Source: Bacillota bacterium
GTDB taxonomy: Bacteria; Armatimonadota; HRBIN16
Length of the DNA: 46,094 bases
Reading direction: 5' to 3'
Assembly: GCA_023511455.1 (NCBI GenBank)
Contig: JAIMBJ010000029.1
Coordinates: forward strand, 1 to 46,094
Numbering within the stretch: the first letter of the stretch is position 1; each line of letters starts with the position of its first letter. The position numbers and the translations under genes are program-made. The notes beneath the pieces were generated by a model. The model saw only the letters and a program-made list of their open reading frames with translations. It searched no databases and was not told the DNA's origin. This document shows positions 10,852 through 36,187 of the stretch, one piece after another.

Positions 10852-11505
10852 ATGAGCCGTTCGGCAGGAGGAACCAACCCTTATATCTGCCAGATGGCTG
10901 GCTGTTTCGAGTCTGCCACCGAGCCAATACCTCTGCCCGAAGGAGAAGGGAATCTGTTTCTGTGCGCCAAGCATCGAGCGCAGTATCTGGCAGGGGAGTT
11001 GTCGTTAGGGCATATCGCCAGCATGACCGCCCGCTACATCCACGATCTGCGCGTGAAACGCCTCAACCGCCTGTATGATGAGCGGGGCAATCTGTGTGAG
11101 ATTCTGCGCCGTGATGACCCTGTCTACCGCGAGTGCTTTCCCGATGGTTTCGCACAGGCTTATATCACGCATGTGGACTATCACGTCGTGAAAGGCTGGC
11201 ACATGCACCTCAAGCAGAAAGACCACTTTTTCGGCGTCTACGGCAGGGCGAAAGTGGTACTCTATGACGAGCGGGAGGATTCGCCCACACAGGGCTTGAT
11301 TAACGAAATCATTCTCACCCCCGAACGTCCTCTTCTGGTGCAGATTCCGGAACGTGTGTGGCATGGTTTCATGGCGCTATCGCTGGAGGGAGCAGGTATC
11401 CTGAACTTCCCTACCCGCCTGTACGATTACGCCGACCCCGACGAGTATCGCCGCGACCCGCACACGGGTGGCATCCCCTACTCGTGGGCAGTGAAGGACA
11501 GGTAG
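10852..11505 (+). CDS. dTDP-4-dehydrorhamnose 3,5-epimerase-family cupin with an N-terminal zinc-ribbon-like extension
   Basis: Residues ~75-215 follow the RmlC cupin: GWHMHLKQKDHFF, YGRAKVVLYDEREDSPT, ERVWHGFMAL, and the tail DYADPDEYRRDP. RmlC epimerises dTDP-4-keto-6-deoxyglucose on the way to dTDP-rhamnose. The N-terminal ~70 residues are not part of that fold and contain Cys13-x4-Cys18 and Cys38-x2-His41, which look like a zinc ribbon. No rmlA, rmlB or rmlD is nearby, so it may act on another nucleotide sugar or have lost epimerase activity. ATG 10852 has AGGGAG upstream. The downstream neighbour, an O-antigen-ligase-like gene, supports a surface-polysaccharide role (inference). Confidence 0.72.
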   Translation: MSRSAGGTNPYICQMAGCFESATEPIPLPEGEGNLFLCAKHRAQYLAGELSLGHIASMTARYIHDLRVKRLNRLYDERGNLCEILRRDDPVYRECFPDGFAQAYITHVDYHVVKGWHMHLKQKDHFFGVYGRAKVVLYDEREDSPTQGLINEIILTPERPLLVQIPERVWHGFMALSLEGAGILNFPTRLYDYADPDEYRRDPHTGGIPYSWAVKDR

Positions 11506-11529
11506 TTGTGCGTGTTTTCTCGCAGGGGT

Positions 11530-11559
11530 CTGGCAATGTTCGACGCCGAGTCGTATAAT
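11530..11559 (+). promoter_or_regulatory. Promoter of the O-antigen-ligase-like gene
   Basis: CTGGCA (11530-11535), an 18-base spacer and a perfect TATAAT (11554-11559). The predicted leader is about 34 nt. Confidence 0.55.
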
Positions 11560-11599
11560 AGAGGCGTGCCCAATTCTGGTTGATGAAAGGGTGAGCGGG

Positions 11600-13195
11600 A
11601 TGACCGGTATTCCGCGTGTGGTAGCACAATCATACTATCGGGTGGTTTCCGGATACTATCGGCTGGCAGAGAGTATCCAGGACTACTTTAATCTGTCGCG
11701 TCGTCTCAATCTGCTCATCTTTGCCATCGCCCTGCTGGGTAGCATTGGCATCGCCGTATCGGTACAGTATGAGGCATGGGTGGGCACCATCTTGCTGATG
11801 TTGGTGATGGTGCTGGTTCCCATGATGACGGTCTACCCGGAGCTGATTGTAGTGGGCATCCTGCTTTGCGTTGCTTCGGTAGTGTCGCCCTTCCTGTGGG
11901 ACAGAATCTTTTTGGGAGAACGCGGTATTACCCTGCCAAACCTCCTCATCTCGCTCGGTCTGGTCGTGGTACTGTTCAGACACCTCACGGGCAAGACGAG
12001 TCCGGTCAAACTGTGGCTTTCCCCTTCCTCCATAGCCATCATCGCGTTTCTCATACTGACGGTTCCTGTGGGGCTTTTATACCATTACCTGTTCCGAGGC
12101 TGGAGTATCCGCTCACAGCTGTCCGAAATGGAATACATGCTGGCGTGGCTCACGTTTTTTATTGCTATCGGGATTATGCGCACGGAGAGAGCCGTGCGTA
12201 ACCTGCAGGTTGGTCTTCTCCTGGTAGCAGGTATTGGCGCTCTGGCCACGGTGCTGCAGGCTCTGCTGGGGCCAAGAGCACTGTTCTTCTTGAGACTGGC
12301 AGAATGGGACATTCCCTTACGCGACACAGAAGGGTTGTTGCGCGTCTTGCCTCCGGGACAGTATCTTGTCCTGGTCAGCCTGGTGATTAGTGCGCAGATG
12401 TCCACAGTCCGTGACGGGCCCCGACGGTGGGGATGGATTGTGCTCACAGCGCTTTATGGACTGGCGATACTCTTTACGCTCACCCGGCACTCGTGGTTCG
12501 GAGCATTGTTTGGTCTGGGGATCATCTGGTTGTTCGGAAGCAGTCGCACGAAAGTGAACCTGCTGCTCATTGCCTTCGTAACAGTGGCTGTAGTCGGCTC
12601 GCTAACCCTGTTTGCGCGCCCTGCTTGGGTAACCCAACCCACTGATATAGTAGCCAAGCTGCAAAGACGATTTATCAGCACGTTTACCGAACCGCCTAAT
12701 CGCTACACATACGGCGTGCCCAGCTCCGTTGGGCAACGGATTTTCGAGATGCACTATATCATGGACAGACTTCCCGAGTCGCCGTGGTTCGGGCTTGGGT
12801 GGGGTACCAAACATCCTCTGCGCGTCACCAAAAGCCCGTATGTGGGCAGCACCTATGAAATGCGCACCTACATTCACAATTCGATACTGTGGATTCTCGG
12901 TAAGGGAGGCATTGTGGGGTTAGTGGGGCTATTGATCCTGCTCGTCACAGGGATGGTCCGGGGCTACATATTGTATAAGAGAACCTCTCCAAACGAAACC
13001 TATGTGCGCTCGTGGCTACTTGCTCTCTGGATAAGCTGGCTGATGCTTCTGCTCGCTGCGCAGTTTGAACCGGTATTCTGGACGAAGAACCGCCTGGTCG
13101 CTCCCGCCATGATACTTGCGCTGATGGAGGGGATATACTATTTCAGCACAAAGAACACACGGAATGCACAGACGGCTGAAGCCCAAACACGCTGA
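11600..13195 (+). CDS. O-antigen ligase / Wzy-like polymerase family membrane protein
   Basis: This 531-residue polytopic protein has roughly eleven hydrophobic segments, starting with LNLLIFAIALLGSIGIAVSV. A large periplasmic loop (residues ~345-435) carries the short helices and Arg/His pattern of the Wzy_C domain, followed by WFGLGWGTKHP and YIHNSILWILGKGG before the last segments. Family members ligate or polymerise polysaccharide chains on undecaprenyl carriers. ATG 11600 is chosen over GTG 11591 because GAAAGG (11585-11590) is nine bases from ATG and abuts GTG. It stands alone behind its own promoter, some distance from the exopolysaccharide genes at 22-27 kb. Ligase and polymerase cannot be told apart from sequence. 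Confidence 0.78.
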   Translation: MTGIPRVVAQSYYRVVSGYYRLAESIQDYFNLSRRLNLLIFAIALLGSIGIAVSVQYEAWVGTILLMLVMVLVPMMTVYPELIVVGILLCVASVVSPFLWDRIFLGERGITLPNLLISLGLVVVLFRHLTGKTSPVKLWLSPSSIAIIAFLILTVPVGLLYHYLFRGWSIRSQLSEMEYMLAWLTFFIAIGIMRTERAVRNLQVGLLLVAGIGALATVLQALLGPRALFFLRLAEWDIPLRDTEGLLRVLPPGQYLVLVSLVISAQMSTVRDGPRRWGWIVLTALYGLAILFTLTRHSWFGALFGLGIIWLFGSSRTKVNLLLIAFVTVAVVGSLTLFARPAWVTQPTDIVAKLQRRFISTFTEPPNRYTYGVPSSVGQRIFEMHYIMDRLPESPWFGLGWGTKHPLRVTKSPYVGSTYEMRTYIHNSILWILGKGGIVGLVGLLILLVTGMVRGYILYKRTSPNETYVRSWLLALWISWLMLLLAAQFEPVFWTKNRLVAPAMILALMEGIYYFSTKNTRNAQTAEAQTR

Positions 13196-17655: not shown

Positions 17656-19482
17656 TCAACGAGCTTGCTGAGACAGATGTTGCTTCAGCAGTGCAAATAA
17701 TGTGCCGGTATGTACCACCCTGGCTCCCGGGTAGTTCTGCTCGATGGCACGCTTCAGTTGCAGATGGTGAGAAGGTGTCCACAGGATGGTGCGGAACAGC
17801 AGGAACTGAGGCTTCTCACCGGTGAGGCGGCTGCCCACGATATTCAGCGCACGCGGCATCTGCAACCCGCCGACGCCCGGCAGGTCATCACGCATGCGCA
17901 GGTAAGGCATTCCGCTGTGCATTCCCCGTTCGGGTATCTTCTGCGCCGCGATGCCGCCCGGAGAAAACCGAGCGTAAGCATCCAGTCCCTGCTCGTCCAG
18001 TCCGCGCGCGTTACCGTCGATGATAAACCCGGTGATACGGATATCCCAGCGGCTGTACTCCCGCTGGCAGTGCGTCTCCCATGCCTTCCAGCCATCCGGC
18101 AAGCCACTGTGAGGGCGGGGGCGGCTCAGGTAGCCCGGGTTCAGGTAACCCGCGCCCGAGTCGCCAGCGATGAAATAGTCGATGGGAGAAGCGTTGCATC
18201 GCACAAAGTGCATGCCCACCGGAAACCGATGCGCGAGATTGGGATTGAACGCCCACGCCAGCGGCACCTTGCCCCGTGCCGGGTCGCTCCACAGGCGGGG
18301 CACCATGCGATAGAACCATGCGCTGGAGTCGTAATCGCCCACATAAAACGCGATGAAGCTGTAGGGCGCAACCATGCCGTTGGAGAGCACGTAACCCTCG
18401 CGCTGCAGGTCGTCCAGGGTGGGATGAGGCTGAGTATATCGCTTTTGCAGAGGGTAATGCATGAAAAACGAGGCGTTCGCCATGGCACCGATGGCGGGAG
18501 CATCGGCATCCAGATAGGCATTAAAGCACGAAGCAATCTCGACAAATCGCCATTCCGATTCCACTGCCCCATGCGGTTCGCCCACCGCGTCGGTATACTT
18601 GAAATCCCACGGCACAAAGCCGCCGATATGGGTCATGCCTCCGCCGGTGAGGTCACAGGACGCCATCAGTACCGCCTTCAGTGTGCGGTTATCCGCGCCC
18701 AGCGGCTGTTCTGGGTCGTCGGATGGCTTCACGTCCTCCCAGGGCGACAGGTCAAAGAAGAACCCCTTGCGAGCGATGAAGTAGTCGTGGTTGCACAGCA
18801 TGGTGCGCTCGATGGGCAGTTGCACCCTGCCCGTGAGCCAGTTCGCGTCGCTATAGTAGCCAAGTATCCCCGGCGCACATTTTCCCTTGCGCAGATAGGT
18901 GCCCACCGCCCACATCAGCGCATCGCACTTCGGGCTGCCGGTGCTGGGCAAAGCCAGGGGCCCCAGACTGCCCTTGCCGGTGAAAAGCGGGCTGCCGTCC
19001 TTCCTCAATAACGAAAGACGCACGGGTAGCCCACCCCTGCCCTGAGTCAAACGGGTGTAGAGGGAACCGGCATCGGGGTCATAGCGTACCGGCAACAGGT
19101 TATCCACTCCGGAGGCGGTCGAGGCTACCAGCGCGGTAGCGGGCACGCGCTCATCCCACACAACCAACCCATTCAACGACCGTCGGAATCGCTGCACCAG
19201 TTCCAGCACGTCGGTAACCTTTTCTATCTTTGCACGGTCAAGCCATTCGCCCTGTTTGCGCAGGTGTTCGAGCCAGTAGAGGTCAGTGCCTCCCCGCCCA
19301 TCGTCTCCCACCAAGAGCACGTAGAGGCGGGGCTGACGACGATTGACGATGCCCTGCAGGGCGGTTACGAGATGCAGCTCGTCCCACGCCCGGCGTCGCT
19401 GGCGTAAATCGGAGAAGTCTATACGATGCAGATGCGTCAGGTCATACAGTACGATGGTTCCCGCAAACTCTCCGGAGGTCAT
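17656..19482 (-). CDS. GxGYxYP-family protein (putative carbohydrate-active)
   Basis: The 608-residue protein matches the GxGYxYP group: an N-terminal domain with ELHLVTALQGIVNRRQPRLYVLL (residues ~35-57), then the main domain with YSDANWLTGR, HIGGFVPWDFKYTDAVG and SFIAFYVGDYDSSAW, and GDSGAGYLNPGYL (~470) as the GxGYxxP-type signature. The group is seen near glycan-degradation and exopolysaccharide genes, but no biochemical role is known to me. Most members are exported; this one has no obvious signal peptide at the chosen start. ATG 19482 overlaps the rpoN stop by four bases (ATGA), an unusual partnership that suggests co-regulation with sigma-54. Confidence 0.72.
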   Translation of the reverse strand: MTSGEFAGTIVLYDLTHLHRIDFSDLRQRRRAWDELHLVTALQGIVNRRQPRLYVLLVGDDGRGGTDLYWLEHLRKQGEWLDRAKIEKVTDVLELVQRFRRSLNGLVVWDERVPATALVASTASGVDNLLPVRYDPDAGSLYTRLTQGRGGLPVRLSLLRKDGSPLFTGKGSLGPLALPSTGSPKCDALMWAVGTYLRKGKCAPGILGYYSDANWLTGRVQLPIERTMLCNHDYFIARKGFFFDLSPWEDVKPSDDPEQPLGADNRTLKAVLMASCDLTGGGMTHIGGFVPWDFKYTDAVGEPHGAVESEWRFVEIASCFNAYLDADAPAIGAMANASFFMHYPLQKRYTQPHPTLDDLQREGYVLSNGMVAPYSFIAFYVGDYDSSAWFYRMVPRLWSDPARGKVPLAWAFNPNLAHRFPVGMHFVRCNASPIDYFIAGDSGAGYLNPGYLSRPRPHSGLPDGWKAWETHCQREYSRWDIRITGFIIDGNARGLDEQGLDAYARFSPGGIAAQKIPERGMHSGMPYLRMRDDLPGVGGLQMPRALNIVGSRLTGEKPQFLLFRTILWTPSHHLQLKRAIEQNYPGARVVHTGTLFALLKQHLSQQAR

Positions 19483-20849
19483 CGCAGTTTCTTTCTCTTT
19501 TTCGAGGACGGGATGTGCAGTCGGACACGATACTTCGAGATGGTTCTGCGAGTTGTCCTGATACCCCAGCGTTGATACAGAATGGCGGCTATCTCCTCGT
19601 CGTTATATGGGTGTTCGGGGTCTTCGGAGTGTATCACTTCCTGTATCGCCTGCTGGATGCTCAGAGCAGGTGTGAAGAAGTCGGAGAAGGGAACGAGGTC
19701 GCCGTTCGGAATTTGCACCCATTTGTTGGATATCGCCCGGCTGACGGTGGACTCATGAATGCCCAGTTGCTCGGCTATCTGTGTGCGCGTGAGGGGCTTG
19801 AGAAATGTGTAGGAGCCGGTTTCGATGAACCCCAGCTGCTGGTCAATGACCGCGCGCGTCACACGCAGTAAAGTGCGATACCGCATTTCGAGGATTTTCA
19901 GAAACTTATCGGCACGCTCTACGTATTCCTCCACCTGTTTGACGACTTCCTCCGGATATTCCGAAGGGTTCCGTTTGATTTTCTCATACTGCTCACGCCA
20001 CTGTGGGCTCACAATCAGAATCCACCGGGGGCGAACGAGCTCCACTTCAAAACCTTCCGGGCTGCGCCGGATGACCACATCGGGTTTTATAATGTCACGG
20101 TAAGAGGACGACGAGACTGCATGAGGTGCCCGGAACCGATTCGCCGGGAAAGGGTGCAATGCTTCCCTGATGTATTTGAGCGCATCCTGTACCTCCTCCG
20201 GATTCACCTTGAGTTCACGCGCGATTCGGCGGACGGGGGGTTTGAGCAGTCGGTGGAAGTACCTCTCCACAATCAGCTCTGCCAGCGGGTTGCCCTGCCC
20301 CTGTTCGCGCAGGTAGCGCAGTTGCAAAAGCATACACTCCTGATGAGAACGCGCTCCAATACCCGGCGGGTCGAGCGATTGCACCGCTTGTAAAACCTCT
20401 TCAATCTCTTCAGGGGTAGCCCCTGTCTCCAGCGATGCGCGATCCATGCTGAAATTGGAGAGCAGCCCGTGCTCGTCGAGATTATCCAGAATGTATTCGG
20501 CAATGGCGTATTGACGCTCTGACAACTGAGCGTGAAGCTCACGGCTGAGATATTCACGCAGGGTGAGGCTGCCATCGGGAGCATTGCTGATGGGGTCCAT
20601 CTCAGGCTCTGGCGCGTCGTCAGCTTCGGCATCGTAAACGCGCTCGAAACGGTTAATCCTCAGAGATGAGCGGCGATAGTCGGCATCCTCGGATACAGTA
20701 TCGATCCTTTCGAGCGCAGGATTCTCCACCAGCTCTTCCTCGATGGCGCTTTCCAGTTCCACGCTGTTGCACTGCAATAAACGGGCTGCCTGAATAACCT
20801 TCTGATCGACTCGTACCTCGATAGTCTGCTGTTGCTTCGGTGCTATCAT
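19479..20849 (-). CDS. rpoN: RNA polymerase sigma-54 factor RpoN
   Basis: RpoN directs RNA polymerase to -24/-12 promoters and needs an AAA+ activator. The 456-residue protein has the Gln/Leu-rich region I (QQQTIEVRVDQKVIQAARLLQCNSVELE), an acidic region II, the core-binding domain, the HTH (TRTQIAEQLGIHESTVSRAISNKWVQIPNG), and the RpoN box RRTISKYR at 434-441, close to the ARRTVAKYR consensus. ATG 20849 is chosen because homologues start at this point; the longer frame upstream has no family match. AGGCGG lies upstream of the ATG. It is followed by the GxGYxYP gene with a four-base overlap. No sigma-54 activator is encoded in this window, but a -24/-12 promoter occurs at 35611. Confidence 0.95.
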   Translation of the reverse strand: MIAPKQQQTIEVRVDQKVIQAARLLQCNSVELESAIEEELVENPALERIDTVSEDADYRRSSLRINRFERVYDAEADDAPEPEMDPISNAPDGSLTLREYLSRELHAQLSERQYAIAEYILDNLDEHGLLSNFSMDRASLETGATPEEIEEVLQAVQSLDPPGIGARSHQECMLLQLRYLREQGQGNPLAELIVERYFHRLLKPPVRRIARELKVNPEEVQDALKYIREALHPFPANRFRAPHAVSSSSYRDIIKPDVVIRRSPEGFEVELVRPRWILIVSPQWREQYEKIKRNPSEYPEEVVKQVEEYVERADKFLKILEMRYRTLLRVTRAVIDQQLGFIETGSYTFLKPLTRTQIAEQLGIHESTVSRAISNKWVQIPNGDLVPFSDFFTPALSIQQAIQEVIHSEDPEHPYNDEEIAAILYQRWGIRTTRRTISKYRVRLHIPSSKKRKKLR

Positions 20850-20948
20850 CACAACCGCCTGCCTTTCGCCTCGTGCTACTGTTGCTGCCTCCTGCCATCC
20901 TGGGCTGCGTACCTGCCCGACAGCACACAGAGGGTAGAGTACGACTCT

Positions 20949-20978
20949 ATCATATCTCTTTTCGAGCGACGATGTCAA
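20949..20978 (-). promoter_or_regulatory. Promoter of the rpoN operon
   Basis: Read on the minus strand: TTGACA (20973-20978), an 18-base spacer, TATGAT (20949-20954). The leader is about 93 nt. It is a housekeeping-type promoter in the 290-base gap behind the antiporter gene. Confidence 0.6.
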
Positions 20979-21139
20979 ACACCTTTTTCGGTGGGTGTTC
21001 CGCAAATCCGCTTCGATGCAGGATGTCGCCGCCTTCGGTTTCGCAAAGCTCAGGATCGAGCCTGCGCCTGCAATAAAGGGGTCCACCAGGTACACCCATT
21101 TCCCCTACAGGTACTTTCCATGTTTTGCGGGGTGAATCC

Positions 21140-22333: not shown

Positions 22334-23530
22334 TTACCTGTTTGCGCACAGTAACCCGGTATACAGGTCCACCAGCACCCTGCGGCTGTGTTCCCAGGCG
22401 AGATGCTCTCGCACACGCTGCAGTCCGTACTCCCCCATGCGTTGACGGCGTTCGGGGTCATCCAGCAGTTCGATGATGCGCAGGGCAAACTCGCGCTCGT
22501 CGTTCGGGGTGGCATACACCGCTGCCTCGCCCGCTGAGAAGCGCGACTCTTTTAGGTCGAAGCTCACCACCGGCAAGCCCATCGCCATATATTCTACCAC
22601 CTTGTTCATGGTGGACACGTCGTTCAGAGGATTTTTGGGGTCGGGCGCGAGCGCAATATCGGCGGTGGAAAGCACTTCCTGCAGCTGCTCATCGGGAATA
22701 CGTCCGGTGAAGTAAACCCATTCATCCACCCCCTTTTCGTGAGCCATCGCTTCGAGGTCGGAGCGAACGTCTCCATCGCCCACCAGCACAAACTGCACGT
22801 CTTCCCTGCCGAAGGTGCGCACGACGTGCTCTATGGCTCGAATCAGGTAATCCACACCGTCCTGCGGTCCCATCACGCCCAGATATACCGCCAGATACCG
22901 CTTCCCTCGCTTGAGTGCTTCGTTGGGTGCAACGCGGTGGAAGCGGTTCAGGTCGGGACCACTGCGCACCACCACCACCCGGTCGGGAGGCACACCGCCT
23001 CGCTGGATGGCGACCTGCCGGTAAGACTCGTTGGTAGCAATCACTCTGTCGGCGGTGCGAAACTGCTGTCGCTCCAGCCACAGCAGCACGCGGTGTATCC
23101 AGCCTCGCTTCCCGAAGCGCGACTCATACAGCTCGGGGTTCAGGTCATGATGGTCGAAGACGTACTTCTTGCCGAACAGCTTGTAAAACCGACCTAACAG
23201 CCAGTAGGTATCGGGCGGGTTGCAGGCGTGTATCACATCGAAGCCCTCGCGTCGCCACACCACCAGGCTCAACCAGAAGGTCATCACCCAGCAGTAGGTG
23301 AACTCCCAGAGGAAACTGATGACCCCGCGGGTGGGAGGATACATTTTATACCTGTAAACGCTCACGCCGTCGATAACCGCATGAGGTGCATCGCCCGGCT
23401 TGCGCGGAGAAATCACCGACACCCCAAAACCCGCCTGCGCCAGAGAGGTGGCTTCCATCCATACCCTTCGGTCGAAGGGAACGGGCAGGTTCTCCACGAC
23501 AATCAATATTCGCTTACCAGTACAGCCCAA
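22334..23530 (-). CDS. Family 4 glycosyltransferase
   Basis: The 398-residue GT-B enzyme has an N-terminal Rossmann domain (RILIVVENLPVPFDRRVWMEA, DHHDLNPELY) and a C-terminal donor-binding domain with YLGVMGPQDGVDYLIRA, VLVGDGDVRSDLE and ADIALAPDPKNPLND, ending in the E-x7-E-type region (NKVVEYMAMGLPVVSFD). It resembles WbuB-like retaining transferases acting on lipid-linked acceptors. The gene overlaps the dehydrogenase stop by 17 bases, suggesting tight coupling. It may transfer a uronic acid or related sugar made by the upstream enzyme (inference). Confidence 0.88.
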   Translation of the reverse strand: MGCTGKRILIVVENLPVPFDRRVWMEATSLAQAGFGVSVISPRKPGDAPHAVIDGVSVYRYKMYPPTRGVISFLWEFTYCWVMTFWLSLVVWRREGFDVIHACNPPDTYWLLGRFYKLFGKKYVFDHHDLNPELYESRFGKRGWIHRVLLWLERQQFRTADRVIATNESYRQVAIQRGGVPPDRVVVVRSGPDLNRFHRVAPNEALKRGKRYLAVYLGVMGPQDGVDYLIRAIEHVVRTFGREDVQFVLVGDGDVRSDLEAMAHEKGVDEWVYFTGRIPDEQLQEVLSTADIALAPDPKNPLNDVSTMNKVVEYMAMGLPVVSFDLKESRFSAGEAAVYATPNDEREFALRIIELLDDPERRQRMGEYGLQRVREHLAWEHSRRVLVDLYTGLLCANR

Positions 23531-24827
23531 TATACCGCCCCCTTATCGCCTCCGGAGAGATACATCTTGCCAGGTCAATCACTATCTGGTCATCGCGGTA
23601 CCGGTCCGCCAGTTGCGTCACGCGGTCATCCCTGTTCGCCAGTACCACGACTTCGCTTTCATCGATCAACTGCTCCAGGCTATCGCACATCAGCGCGTGG
23701 ATATGCGGGATTTCGCGTTCAATGTAAGCCTTGTTGCTGCCATAAATCGCCGCCAGCGAGACGTTGGGGTCGTAAATGCGCAGGGAGTAGCCCTTGCCGA
23801 TGAGATGCTCACACAGGGTCACCATGGGGCTTTCGCGCAGGTCATCAGTGCCTGCCTTAAACGCCAGTCCGACCACACCCACACGCTTCTTGCCCAGCTG
23901 CACAATAAGGTCTACCGTACGCTCGATCTGCAGGCGGTTGCTCACCAGTATCGACTCCAGCGTGGGCAGGGTGAGGTCGTGCTGATGCGCTCGATACACC
24001 AGCGCGCGCAGGTCCTTGGGAAGGCACGAGCCACCGAACGCGAAGCCGGGCGTCAGGTACGCCGGCGAGATGTTCAGCTTCGTATCCATCGTCAACAGGC
24101 GCATGACCACATGGCTATCCACGCCCTCCTGCTTGCACCATGCACCGATTTCGTTCGCAAAGGTGATTTTCAGCGCATGGAAGGCGTTATTCGCGTACTT
24201 GACCATCTCGGCGGTGCGCAGGTCGGTCTTCACACACTCGGCGGGGATGCCCGCGTACAGCTCCGCCACGCGGTCGGCGGCTTCCTTGCTCTGCGAGCCG
24301 ATAACGGTCAGCGGAGGATGGTAGAAATCGTGGATGGCGGTGCCTTCGCGCAGGAACTCCGGGTTCATGCACACATGGAACCCCTCGCCGTGCCGCCTGC
24401 CAGAGGTTTTTTCCAGAGTGGGGATGACCAGCCCTTCGCACGTACCTGGCAGAACGGTGCTGCGCACCACCACAATGTACGGCTCCTCGCGCCCGGCAAG
24501 GGCAGCACCGATCTGTCGGCACACGCGCTCCACGAACTCCAGATTCAGGCTCCCGTTTCGCCGGCTGGGCGTGCCCACGCAGACCAGGGCGATATCGCTC
24601 TGTGCCACTGCCTCGTCCGCGCAGGTCGTCGCCACCAGCCTGCCCGCCTCACGCGTGCGGCGGATGTATTGCTCGAGGTCACGCTCCACGATAGGCGAGC
24701 GTCCCTCCATGATGCATTGCACCTTGTAGGCGTCGGTATCCACTCCAATCACACGGTGTCCCTCCGCCGCAAAGCAAGAGGCGGTTACCGCTCCCACATA
24801 GCCCAGACCGAAAACAGCGATCCGCAT
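23514..24827 (-). CDS. algD: GDP-mannose 6-dehydrogenase (AlgD-like)
   Basis: The 437-residue enzyme of the UDP-glucose/GDP-mannose dehydrogenase family follows the AlgD branch closely: FGLGYVGAV at the NAD site, VGTPSRRNG, VRSTVLPGT, NPEFLREGTAI and PGFAFGGSCLPKDLRALVYRA, with nucleophile Cys268, the same number as in Pseudomonas AlgD as I recall it. SFKAGTDDLRESP-type sequence is present near residue 318. It would oxidise GDP-mannose twice to GDP-mannuronate. UDP-glucose dehydrogenase is the alternative, but those usually show GPGFGGSCFPKD. The start directly abuts the stop of the heparinase-like gene, so the unit is an operon for an acidic, possibly mannuronate-containing polymer. Confidence 0.85.
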   Translation of the reverse strand: MRIAVFGLGYVGAVTASCFAAEGHRVIGVDTDAYKVQCIMEGRSPIVERDLEQYIRRTREAGRLVATTCADEAVAQSDIALVCVGTPSRRNGSLNLEFVERVCRQIGAALAGREEPYIVVVRSTVLPGTCEGLVIPTLEKTSGRRHGEGFHVCMNPEFLREGTAIHDFYHPPLTVIGSQSKEAADRVAELYAGIPAECVKTDLRTAEMVKYANNAFHALKITFANEIGAWCKQEGVDSHVVMRLLTMDTKLNISPAYLTPGFAFGGSCLPKDLRALVYRAHQHDLTLPTLESILVSNRLQIERTVDLIVQLGKKRVGVVGLAFKAGTDDLRESPMVTLCEHLIGKGYSLRIYDPNVSLAAIYGSNKAYIEREIPHIHALMCDSLEQLIDESEVVVLANRDDRVTQLADRYRDDQIVIDLARCISPEAIRGRYIGLYW

Positions 24828-35453: not shown

Positions 35454-35610
35454 ACGCGGAATGTCTCCTTTCCAAAGAGGCTTATACTATATCCACTTCT
35501 CTCTCCGCGAAGGTCCTTCGTGACGGGGCAGCGGACAGCATAACGCCACTCCTGACGGTACCGCTGCAAGCACCTGAAGAAACCACCTGTTTTTCGTGCT
35601 ACCTCGCGAA

Positions 35611-35626
35611 TGGCACGAATCTTGCA
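35611..35626 (+). promoter_or_regulatory. Sigma-54 (-24/-12) promoter
   Basis: TGGCACGAATCTTGCA fits the consensus TGGCAC-N5-TTGCW at every fixed position. The GG (35612-35613) and GC (35624-35625) are separated by ten bases, the invariant spacing. The predicted start is about 35637. rpoN lies at 19479-20849. Confidence 0.72.
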
Positions 35627-35636
35627 CTATATAACA

Positions 35637-35774
35637 TTGCGCAGGAGTGCGTGAACAAAAAAACTGGACACCGAAAAGATGCACCGGCTTGCCCGGTGAC
35701 AGATACCGTCTTTCCGTTCAGACACTCACTCCTTCATTCCTGCGTTTCGCCCCGGCAGCGTCGGGGCTTTTTTT
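35637..35774 (+). ncRNA. Candidate sigma-54-dependent small RNA (~138 nt)
   Basis: It runs from the -24/-12 promoter to the terminator at 35749-35774. It contains a hairpin CACCGG (35682-35687) with CCGGTG (35693-35698) around loop CTTGC, an A-rich single-stranded stretch (GAACAAAAAAACTGG) and the terminator hairpin, the layout of a base-pairing regulatory RNA. The only frame through it, GTG 35647 onward, has no spaced ribosome site and runs through the terminator. Confidence 0.55.
35749..35774 (+). terminator. Strong intrinsic terminator
   Basis: GCCCCG (35749-35754) pairs with CGGGGC (35762-35767) around a 7-nt loop, followed by seven T residues (35768-35774). No plus-strand protein gene lies just upstream; it closes the sigma-54 transcript. 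Confidence 0.85.
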
Positions 35775-35805: not shown

Positions 35806-35811
35806 TATAAT
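35806..35811 (+). promoter_or_regulatory. -10 box upstream of the 66-residue gene
   Basis: A perfect TATAAT, with only a weak -35 (TGGATT, 35783-35788) at 17 bases. The leader to ATG 35932 would be ~115 nt and contains a 23-codon frame (35815-35887) without a ribosome site. Confidence 0.5.
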
Positions 35812-35931: not shown

Positions 35932-36132
35932 ATGGAGGCAGAGCGCCGGGTATCGCTGTTGTTCCCGCGAAGCTGGCAACTGGTCTCGGTCTACGTTCCG
36001 GCGAGCGCAGTAGATTACGTCAAAGAGCGTAACATGCAATACTGGTTATCCTTATACGAGCGCGACGCGGAACAGGCTCTGCAAATTGGAGAGCAGTTGG
36101 GACTGGTGATACCGCAAAAAGCAGCTTCTTGA
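35932..36132 (+). CDS. Small protein of unknown function (66 aa)
   Basis: ATG 35932 is preceded by AAAGGAGGTG at six bases, a near-perfect ribosome site, and the gene sits between its own -10 box and an intrinsic terminator, so it is very likely real. The protein is soluble, with a short beta-like start (RRVSLLFPRSWQLVSVYVPASAVDYV) and a helical, acidic second half (ERDAEQALQIGEQLGLVIP). I do not recognise a family; no cysteine, signal peptide or membrane segment is present. Confidence 0.65.
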   Translation: MEAERRVSLLFPRSWQLVSVYVPASAVDYVKERNMQYWLSLYERDAEQALQIGEQLGLVIPQKAAS

Positions 36133-36153: not shown

Positions 36154-36187
36154 AAGCCCCAAGCACTGGCTTGGGGCTTCTTGTTTT
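36154..36187. terminator. Bidirectional intrinsic terminator
   Basis: An 11-bp perfect stem (36154-36164 with 36169-36179, core GCCCCAAGC) around loop ACTG, then CTTGTTTTG on the plus strand. It lies between the 66-residue gene and the convergent vanX-like gene. Confidence 0.8.

Follow-up and report, generated by a model that had tools for sequence, protein, structure and literature searches.

A 46,094-nucleotide stretch of DNA (contig JAIMBJ010000029.1 of assembly GCA_023511455.1, from the HRBIN16 lineage of the Armatimonadota; hereafter the window) carries at 35637-35774 a predicted small RNA. In our judgement this is probably a trans-acting base-pairing RNA which, made from a sigma-54 promoter, blocks translation of exosortase/PEP-CTERM mRNAs and acts as an incoherent feed-forward brake. 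With somewhat less assurance we favour the wider proposal that it represents an undescribed small RNA family, the post-transcriptional arm of the sigma-54 exosortase/PEP-CTERM regulon in Armatimonadota, which would be co-made with its targets and would block at least four ribosome-binding sites with one antisense seed. Promoter, structure, conservation, complementarity and specificity can each be read from the sequence. The locus had been picked out in a first-pass annotation as a promoter, a structured RNA and a terminator with no open reading frame, an observation that is confirmed here. The annotation's interpretation, a stand-alone sigma-54-driven small RNA without a protein gene, is supported as the best reading of the locus by conservation of the unit, by the lack of conserved reading frames and by the separation of the RNA from its neighbouring gene in one genome (G008).

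The promoter and the features of the window that relate to it are as follows.

35611-35626, + strand: sigma-54 -24/-12 promoter TGGCACGAATCTTGCA, with a conserved CTATA extension to 35631 (pattern and chance estimates; nine of nine loci)
35584-35594, + strand: conserved CACCTGTTTTT tract, some 20-30 nt ahead of the -24 element, kept in most of the nine loci; the sequence farther upstream diverges
19479-21095, - strand: rpoN, encoding sigma-54, with AID, CBD and DBD domains (Pfam)

The GG (35612-35613) and the GC (35624-35625) are separated by ten bases and lie within the TGGCACG/TTGCA surroundings of the sigma-54 class, just as the first-pass annotation had described for this site. The strict pattern TGGYACNNNNNTTGCW has 22 matches genome-wide against 6 for the reversed control, and the 21-base extended form, which includes the CTATA, is matched once in the window where 0.01 matches would be expected by chance. 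Close relatives had been named as the place to look for loss of these elements; alignment of the nine homologous loci showed that all of them retain the promoter as TGGYACGAWTCTTGCAYTATA, followed by 5-8 variable bases. We infer that the RNA is transcribed from this promoter and that its transcription depends on sigma-54. The CACCTGTTTTT tract is a possible activator site or AT-rich site. The presence of rpoN in the same window, also pointed out earlier, is corroborated by its Pfam domains. Its neighbours (10852-13195 and 22334-24827) are polysaccharide genes, comprising a Wzy_C ligase, a glycosyltransferase, a UDP-glucose/GDP-mannose dehydrogenase and a dTDP-sugar isomerase.

Within the RNA gene the following elements are distinguished.

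35637-35774, + strand: predicted small RNA of about 138 nt (covariance model, 9 of 10 genus genomes)
35639-35649, + strand: 5' arm of the basal stem, GCGCAGGAGTG, pairing with 35735-35745 (CATTCCTGCGT); 11 pairs, 99% of cells paired (nine sequences)
35664-35669, + strand: 5' arm of helix 2, CTGGAC, pairing with 35716-35721 (GTTCAG)
35682-35698, + strand: middle hairpin, CACCGG-loop-CCGGTG, with compensatory changes at two pairs; absent in G001
35711-35744, + strand: nearly invariant 34-nt block TTTCCGTTCAGACACTCACTCCTTCATTCCTGCG, identical in 8 of 9 loci, with one C to T change in G004
35722-35735, + strand: putative anti-Shine-Dalgarno seed ACACTCACTCCTTC (seed sequence ACACUCACUCCUUC), from unpaired probabilities and its complement at target ribosome-binding sites
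35749-35774, + strand: intrinsic terminator, an 8-bp GC stem (35749-35767, kept in relatives) followed by seven T (35768-35774)

The start at about 35637 was derived from the spacing to the -12 element. In the nine-locus alignment the conserved RNA begins with GCGCAGGAGTG after the variable 5-8 bases, in agreement with a start about 12 bases past the GC. The interval folds with a predicted energy of -52.2 kcal/mol (z = -4.3 against dinucleotide shuffles), and none of 200 shuffles was as good. The basal stem and helix 2 are nearly without variation across relatives and are therefore supported mainly by energy and not by covariation. The strong terminator with seven T that had been placed about 120 bases past the promoter is found there; the hairpin reported between the two is likewise present, with its compensatory changes, but the most conserved part of the RNA is instead the 34 nt before the terminator. 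In the predicted fold of the window sequence most of the seed is unpaired (probabilities of 0.5-1.0), whereas in some relatives it is less open.

A DNA search of 61 genomes showed that the element is present in 9 of the 10 genomes of an Armatimonadota hot-spring genus (the HRbin16 group), where promoter, structure and terminator are conserved as one unit. A covariance model, the comparison that had been suggested as a check, scored the nine genus loci at 101-170 bits, and no other convincing locus was found with it in 291 genomes of the phylum. Its matches outside the genus (19-25 bits) were mostly bare GC-rich terminators without the seed or a -24/-12 element, and pattern-scan matches in other phyla were unrelated chance. 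No Rfam family reached its gathering score for the RNA; the best sub-threshold match scored 17.2 bits against 50, and such matches were set aside as chance. The statement that the interval holds no credible open reading frame also stands. An AGGAG precedes a GTG at 35651 and two frames are open in the window, which might speak for a short peptide encoded by GTG-started frames; in the alignment, however, these frames shift or stop in relatives, no reading frame survives the 1-2-base insertions and deletions that separate close relatives, and the frame in which the invariant block would be read differs between genomes. Coding potential was rejected on these frameshifts, and we give the peptide next to no chance.

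The position of the element raises the alternative that it is a cis-acting leader or attenuator of a downstream gene for a 66-amino-acid protein, which in the window begins 157 nt past the terminator and is about as far from it in 8 of 9 loci. In G008, however, the two are on different contigs, the RNA gene beside a MutS-like open reading frame and the 66-amino-acid gene still adjoining genes for an M15 peptidase and DapF; moreover, the protein gene has its own conserved TATAAT-like box past the terminator. A leader function is very improbable, and it was discarded on the strength of the separate loci in G008. The gene itself (35932-36132, + strand) has no Pfam or NCBIfam match, shows 83-100% identity in 9 of 10 genomes, and is flanked by the TATAAT-like box at 35806-35811 and a terminator at 36154-36179.

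Extended-form -24/-12 sites elsewhere in the genome precede PEP-CTERM, DUF4114, dockerin-type secreted, response-regulator/PilZ, prepilin-like and exosortase genes. The invariant block appeared complementary to two of the leaders concerned, and targets were then tested for systematically. A search of the RNA's own genome for AATGAAGGAGTGAG with at most one mismatch gave nothing but the exosortase ribosome-binding site, the RNA gene and one intragenic one-mismatch site with no following start codon; the only exact copies of AAGGAGTGAGTGTC are at the ribosome-binding site of the pseudopilin and within the RNA gene. In the ten genomes the seed complement AAGGAGTGAGTG is matched 30 times and its reversed control twice. 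The RNA gene accounts for eight of the 30; of the 22 left, 17 fall at ribosome-binding sites of three gene families (seven at a Wzc-like gene, five at the pseudopilin and five at a PEP-CTERM-like protein). The remainder are isolated cases; one, a galT-like gene of G003 (L099, G003:C4:353063), has AAGGAGTGAGTGTC at its ribosome-binding site and is possibly a species-specific target. The exosortase leader carries a 15-nt match to the block, and the Wzc-like gene lies two genes past the exosortase in the same operon. Across the targets the complementarity spans 11-17 nt and covers the Shine-Dalgarno bases to near the start codon.

The exosortase was identified by TIGR02602 (171 bits, cut-off 105.55) and the EpsI of its operon by TIGR02914 (93 bits, cut-off 42.8); the other target families were assigned with TIGR01007/TIGR03007 (Wzc-like), TIGR02532 and PF07589, the targeted PEP-CTERM protein scoring 18.4 bits with PF07589, for which the cut-off is 20.7. 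A different sigma-54 gene of the same genome passes TIGR02595. Sigma-54-like promoters lie upstream of the exosortase and the pseudopilin, and the PEP-CTERM gene has a GG-N10-GC in most genomes. In most genomes the exosortase leader (L045) contains a conserved hairpin CGGGGCGGTAGACCCCG, placed after the sigma-54 promoter and ahead of the exosortase start. Sigma-54-like promoters with the shared extended consensus at L021, L026, L033-L035 and L037 outline a surface regulon outside Proteobacteria. One gene with its own -24/-12 promoter (L027:376-1410, - strand) encodes a response regulator that ends in a C-terminal PilZ domain; it was considered as an NtrC-like sigma-54 activator and rejected as such on its domain content.

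The specificity of this complementarity was assessed against a background sample of 358 kb (about 8% of the genome), made up of 15 stretches of 20 kb, one of 12 kb and the window. Among its 476 open reading frames preceded by GGAG the longest complement was 15 nt for the exosortase and 13 nt for the Wzc-like gene, with all others at or below 10 nt; since the exosortase region was deliberately included, this is a comparison of target with background and no blind scan. Among orthologues the complementary block is 93-95% identical, against 36-48% for the 13-14 bases upstream. In each of the seven genomes with a readable leader, the site (11-17 nt) is present at the first PEP-CTERM gene, and tandem or second PEP-CTERM copies in the same genomes are without it (5-7 nt) and serve as an internal control. 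Of 2000 seeds with shuffled flanks around a fixed CTCCTT core, none equalled the real seed in its pairing across the four target sets combined; this test is partly circular, three of the target families having been found by the seed.

These data also bear on whether an extended ribosome-binding motif is common to the four genes for some other reason, such as a regulatory protein or a preferred leader, the complementarity of the RNA being secondary or serving its own fold. G009, in which the motif sites are retained and the RNA gene is undetected, would fit such an explanation, as would the resemblance of the RNA's own 5' arm AGGAGTGCGTG to the shared motif. Against this, the motif is absent from the other sampled leaders (at most 10 nt) and from the tandem paralogues, and the RNA carries the antisense and not the sense of the motif, on a strand that is nearly invariant well beyond the needs of its own stems. 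A shared motif of other origin is thus unlikely in our view. Through its 5' arm GCGCAGGAGTGCGTG (35639-35653), which is similar to the ribosome-binding site of the targets (GCGAAGGAGTGAGTG), the RNA might also pair with its own seed, and it may have originated by inverted copying of a target leader. Alternatively, the RNA might act as a decoy, titrating away an RNA-binding protein or a second small RNA (in the manner of CsrB or CrcZ, or as a sponge), and its conserved single-stranded loop and GGA-containing 5' arm could be cited in favour. No repeated protein-binding motifs are evident, however, and the pattern of conservation is that of a single antisense seed matched to mRNA sites; we regard the decoy as quite improbable.

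Several points weigh against a base-pairing repressor. In G009 (98% complete, 220 contigs) the target sites are kept and the RNA gene was not found even at E values up to 10, and G002, its nearest relative by leader sequence, has the RNA gene. The neighbouring 66-amino-acid gene is missing from G009 too, and a single gap or deletion would account for the two absences together; an assembly gap is a possible account. G009 does have a 43% identical copy of the 66-amino-acid protein (L153). Conservation of the exosortase leader extends over most of its length, in G000 the PEP-CTERM match amounts to just 11 nt, and no clean co-variation of seed and target was seen, the sole change in the seed (G004) giving a G-U pair. 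Ranked by duplex energy, the exosortase came second among 256, with the pseudopilin and the Wzc-like gene inside the best 2-4%; such predicted energy alone separates targets only moderately from background, and as a sole criterion for targets it was rejected as too weak.

On balance we favour the base-pairing repressor, which would work as follows. The basal stem, formed by the 5' end and the 3' part of the invariant block, and the second helix would hold the CU-rich seed in an internal loop. From there, in the cell, the seed would form a duplex of 11-17 nt with the Shine-Dalgarno regions of surface-system mRNAs, namely those for the exosortase, the Wzc-like polysaccharide chain-length/tyrosine-kinase gene of its operon, the PEP-CTERM protein and the prepilin-like protein. 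As the pairing reaches from the Shine-Dalgarno bases to near the start codon, a block to ribosome entry is the simplest effect, and repression rather than activation is what we infer. Because the targets have sigma-54-like promoters or sit in operons that do, the RNA would damp part of its own regulon, and this incoherent feed-forward brake may limit or time the export of surface proteins and exopolysaccharide. If this is true, exosortase sorting, exopolysaccharide export and a prepilin-like protein are joined in one post-transcriptional circuit, and a sigma-54 small RNA exists in a phylum for which no described example came to light, one whose target set needs nothing but sequence to be read. 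In the paper library searched there was no earlier report of such an RNA or of small RNA control of an exosortase system.

The precedent offered in the first-pass annotation was that of GlmY and GlmZ, enteric small RNAs with sigma-54 promoters. The parallel holds for the promoter class and only for that, and the precedents are not confined to enteric bacteria, NrsZ of Pseudomonas and CJnc230 of Campylobacter being known sigma-54-linked small RNAs; GlnZ is a further sigma-54 small RNA. The Qrr small RNAs of Vibrio, which depend on sigma-54 with LuxO, are trans-acting and pair with several mRNAs; they differ in their quorum-sensing targets, their seed and their host phylum, and the present RNA has no Rfam match. 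MicA and RybB, of the sigma-E response, illustrate an envelope sigma-factor regulon that includes RNA repressors of surface-protein mRNAs, but the sigma factor is another one and their targets lie outside the set that it activates. Like GlmY and GlmZ, the RNA described here has a stand-alone gene and a relation to the cell envelope. GlmY acts as a decoy for RapZ and GlmZ activates glmS (PMC7073468), whereas the present RNA, again without their Rfam match, is predicted to block ribosome-binding sites. CJnc230/FlmE of Campylobacter jejuni is an RpoN-dependent small RNA that represses translation of mRNAs of its own system (PMC11187230), but it is processed from the flgE transcript and has flagellar targets, in contrast to the free-standing promoter and surface-sorting targets found here. 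Sigma-54 promoters upstream of PEP-CTERM genes and the PrsK/PrsR regulon have been described (PMC1569441, PMC9850573), in Proteobacteria only in the 2006 paper and with no small RNA arm reported. The RNA would thus join a known class of sigma-54 small RNAs with a regulon that appears to be new and, if the reading is true, it suggests that the sigma-54/PEP-CTERM link of Proteobacteria exists in Armatimonadota too.
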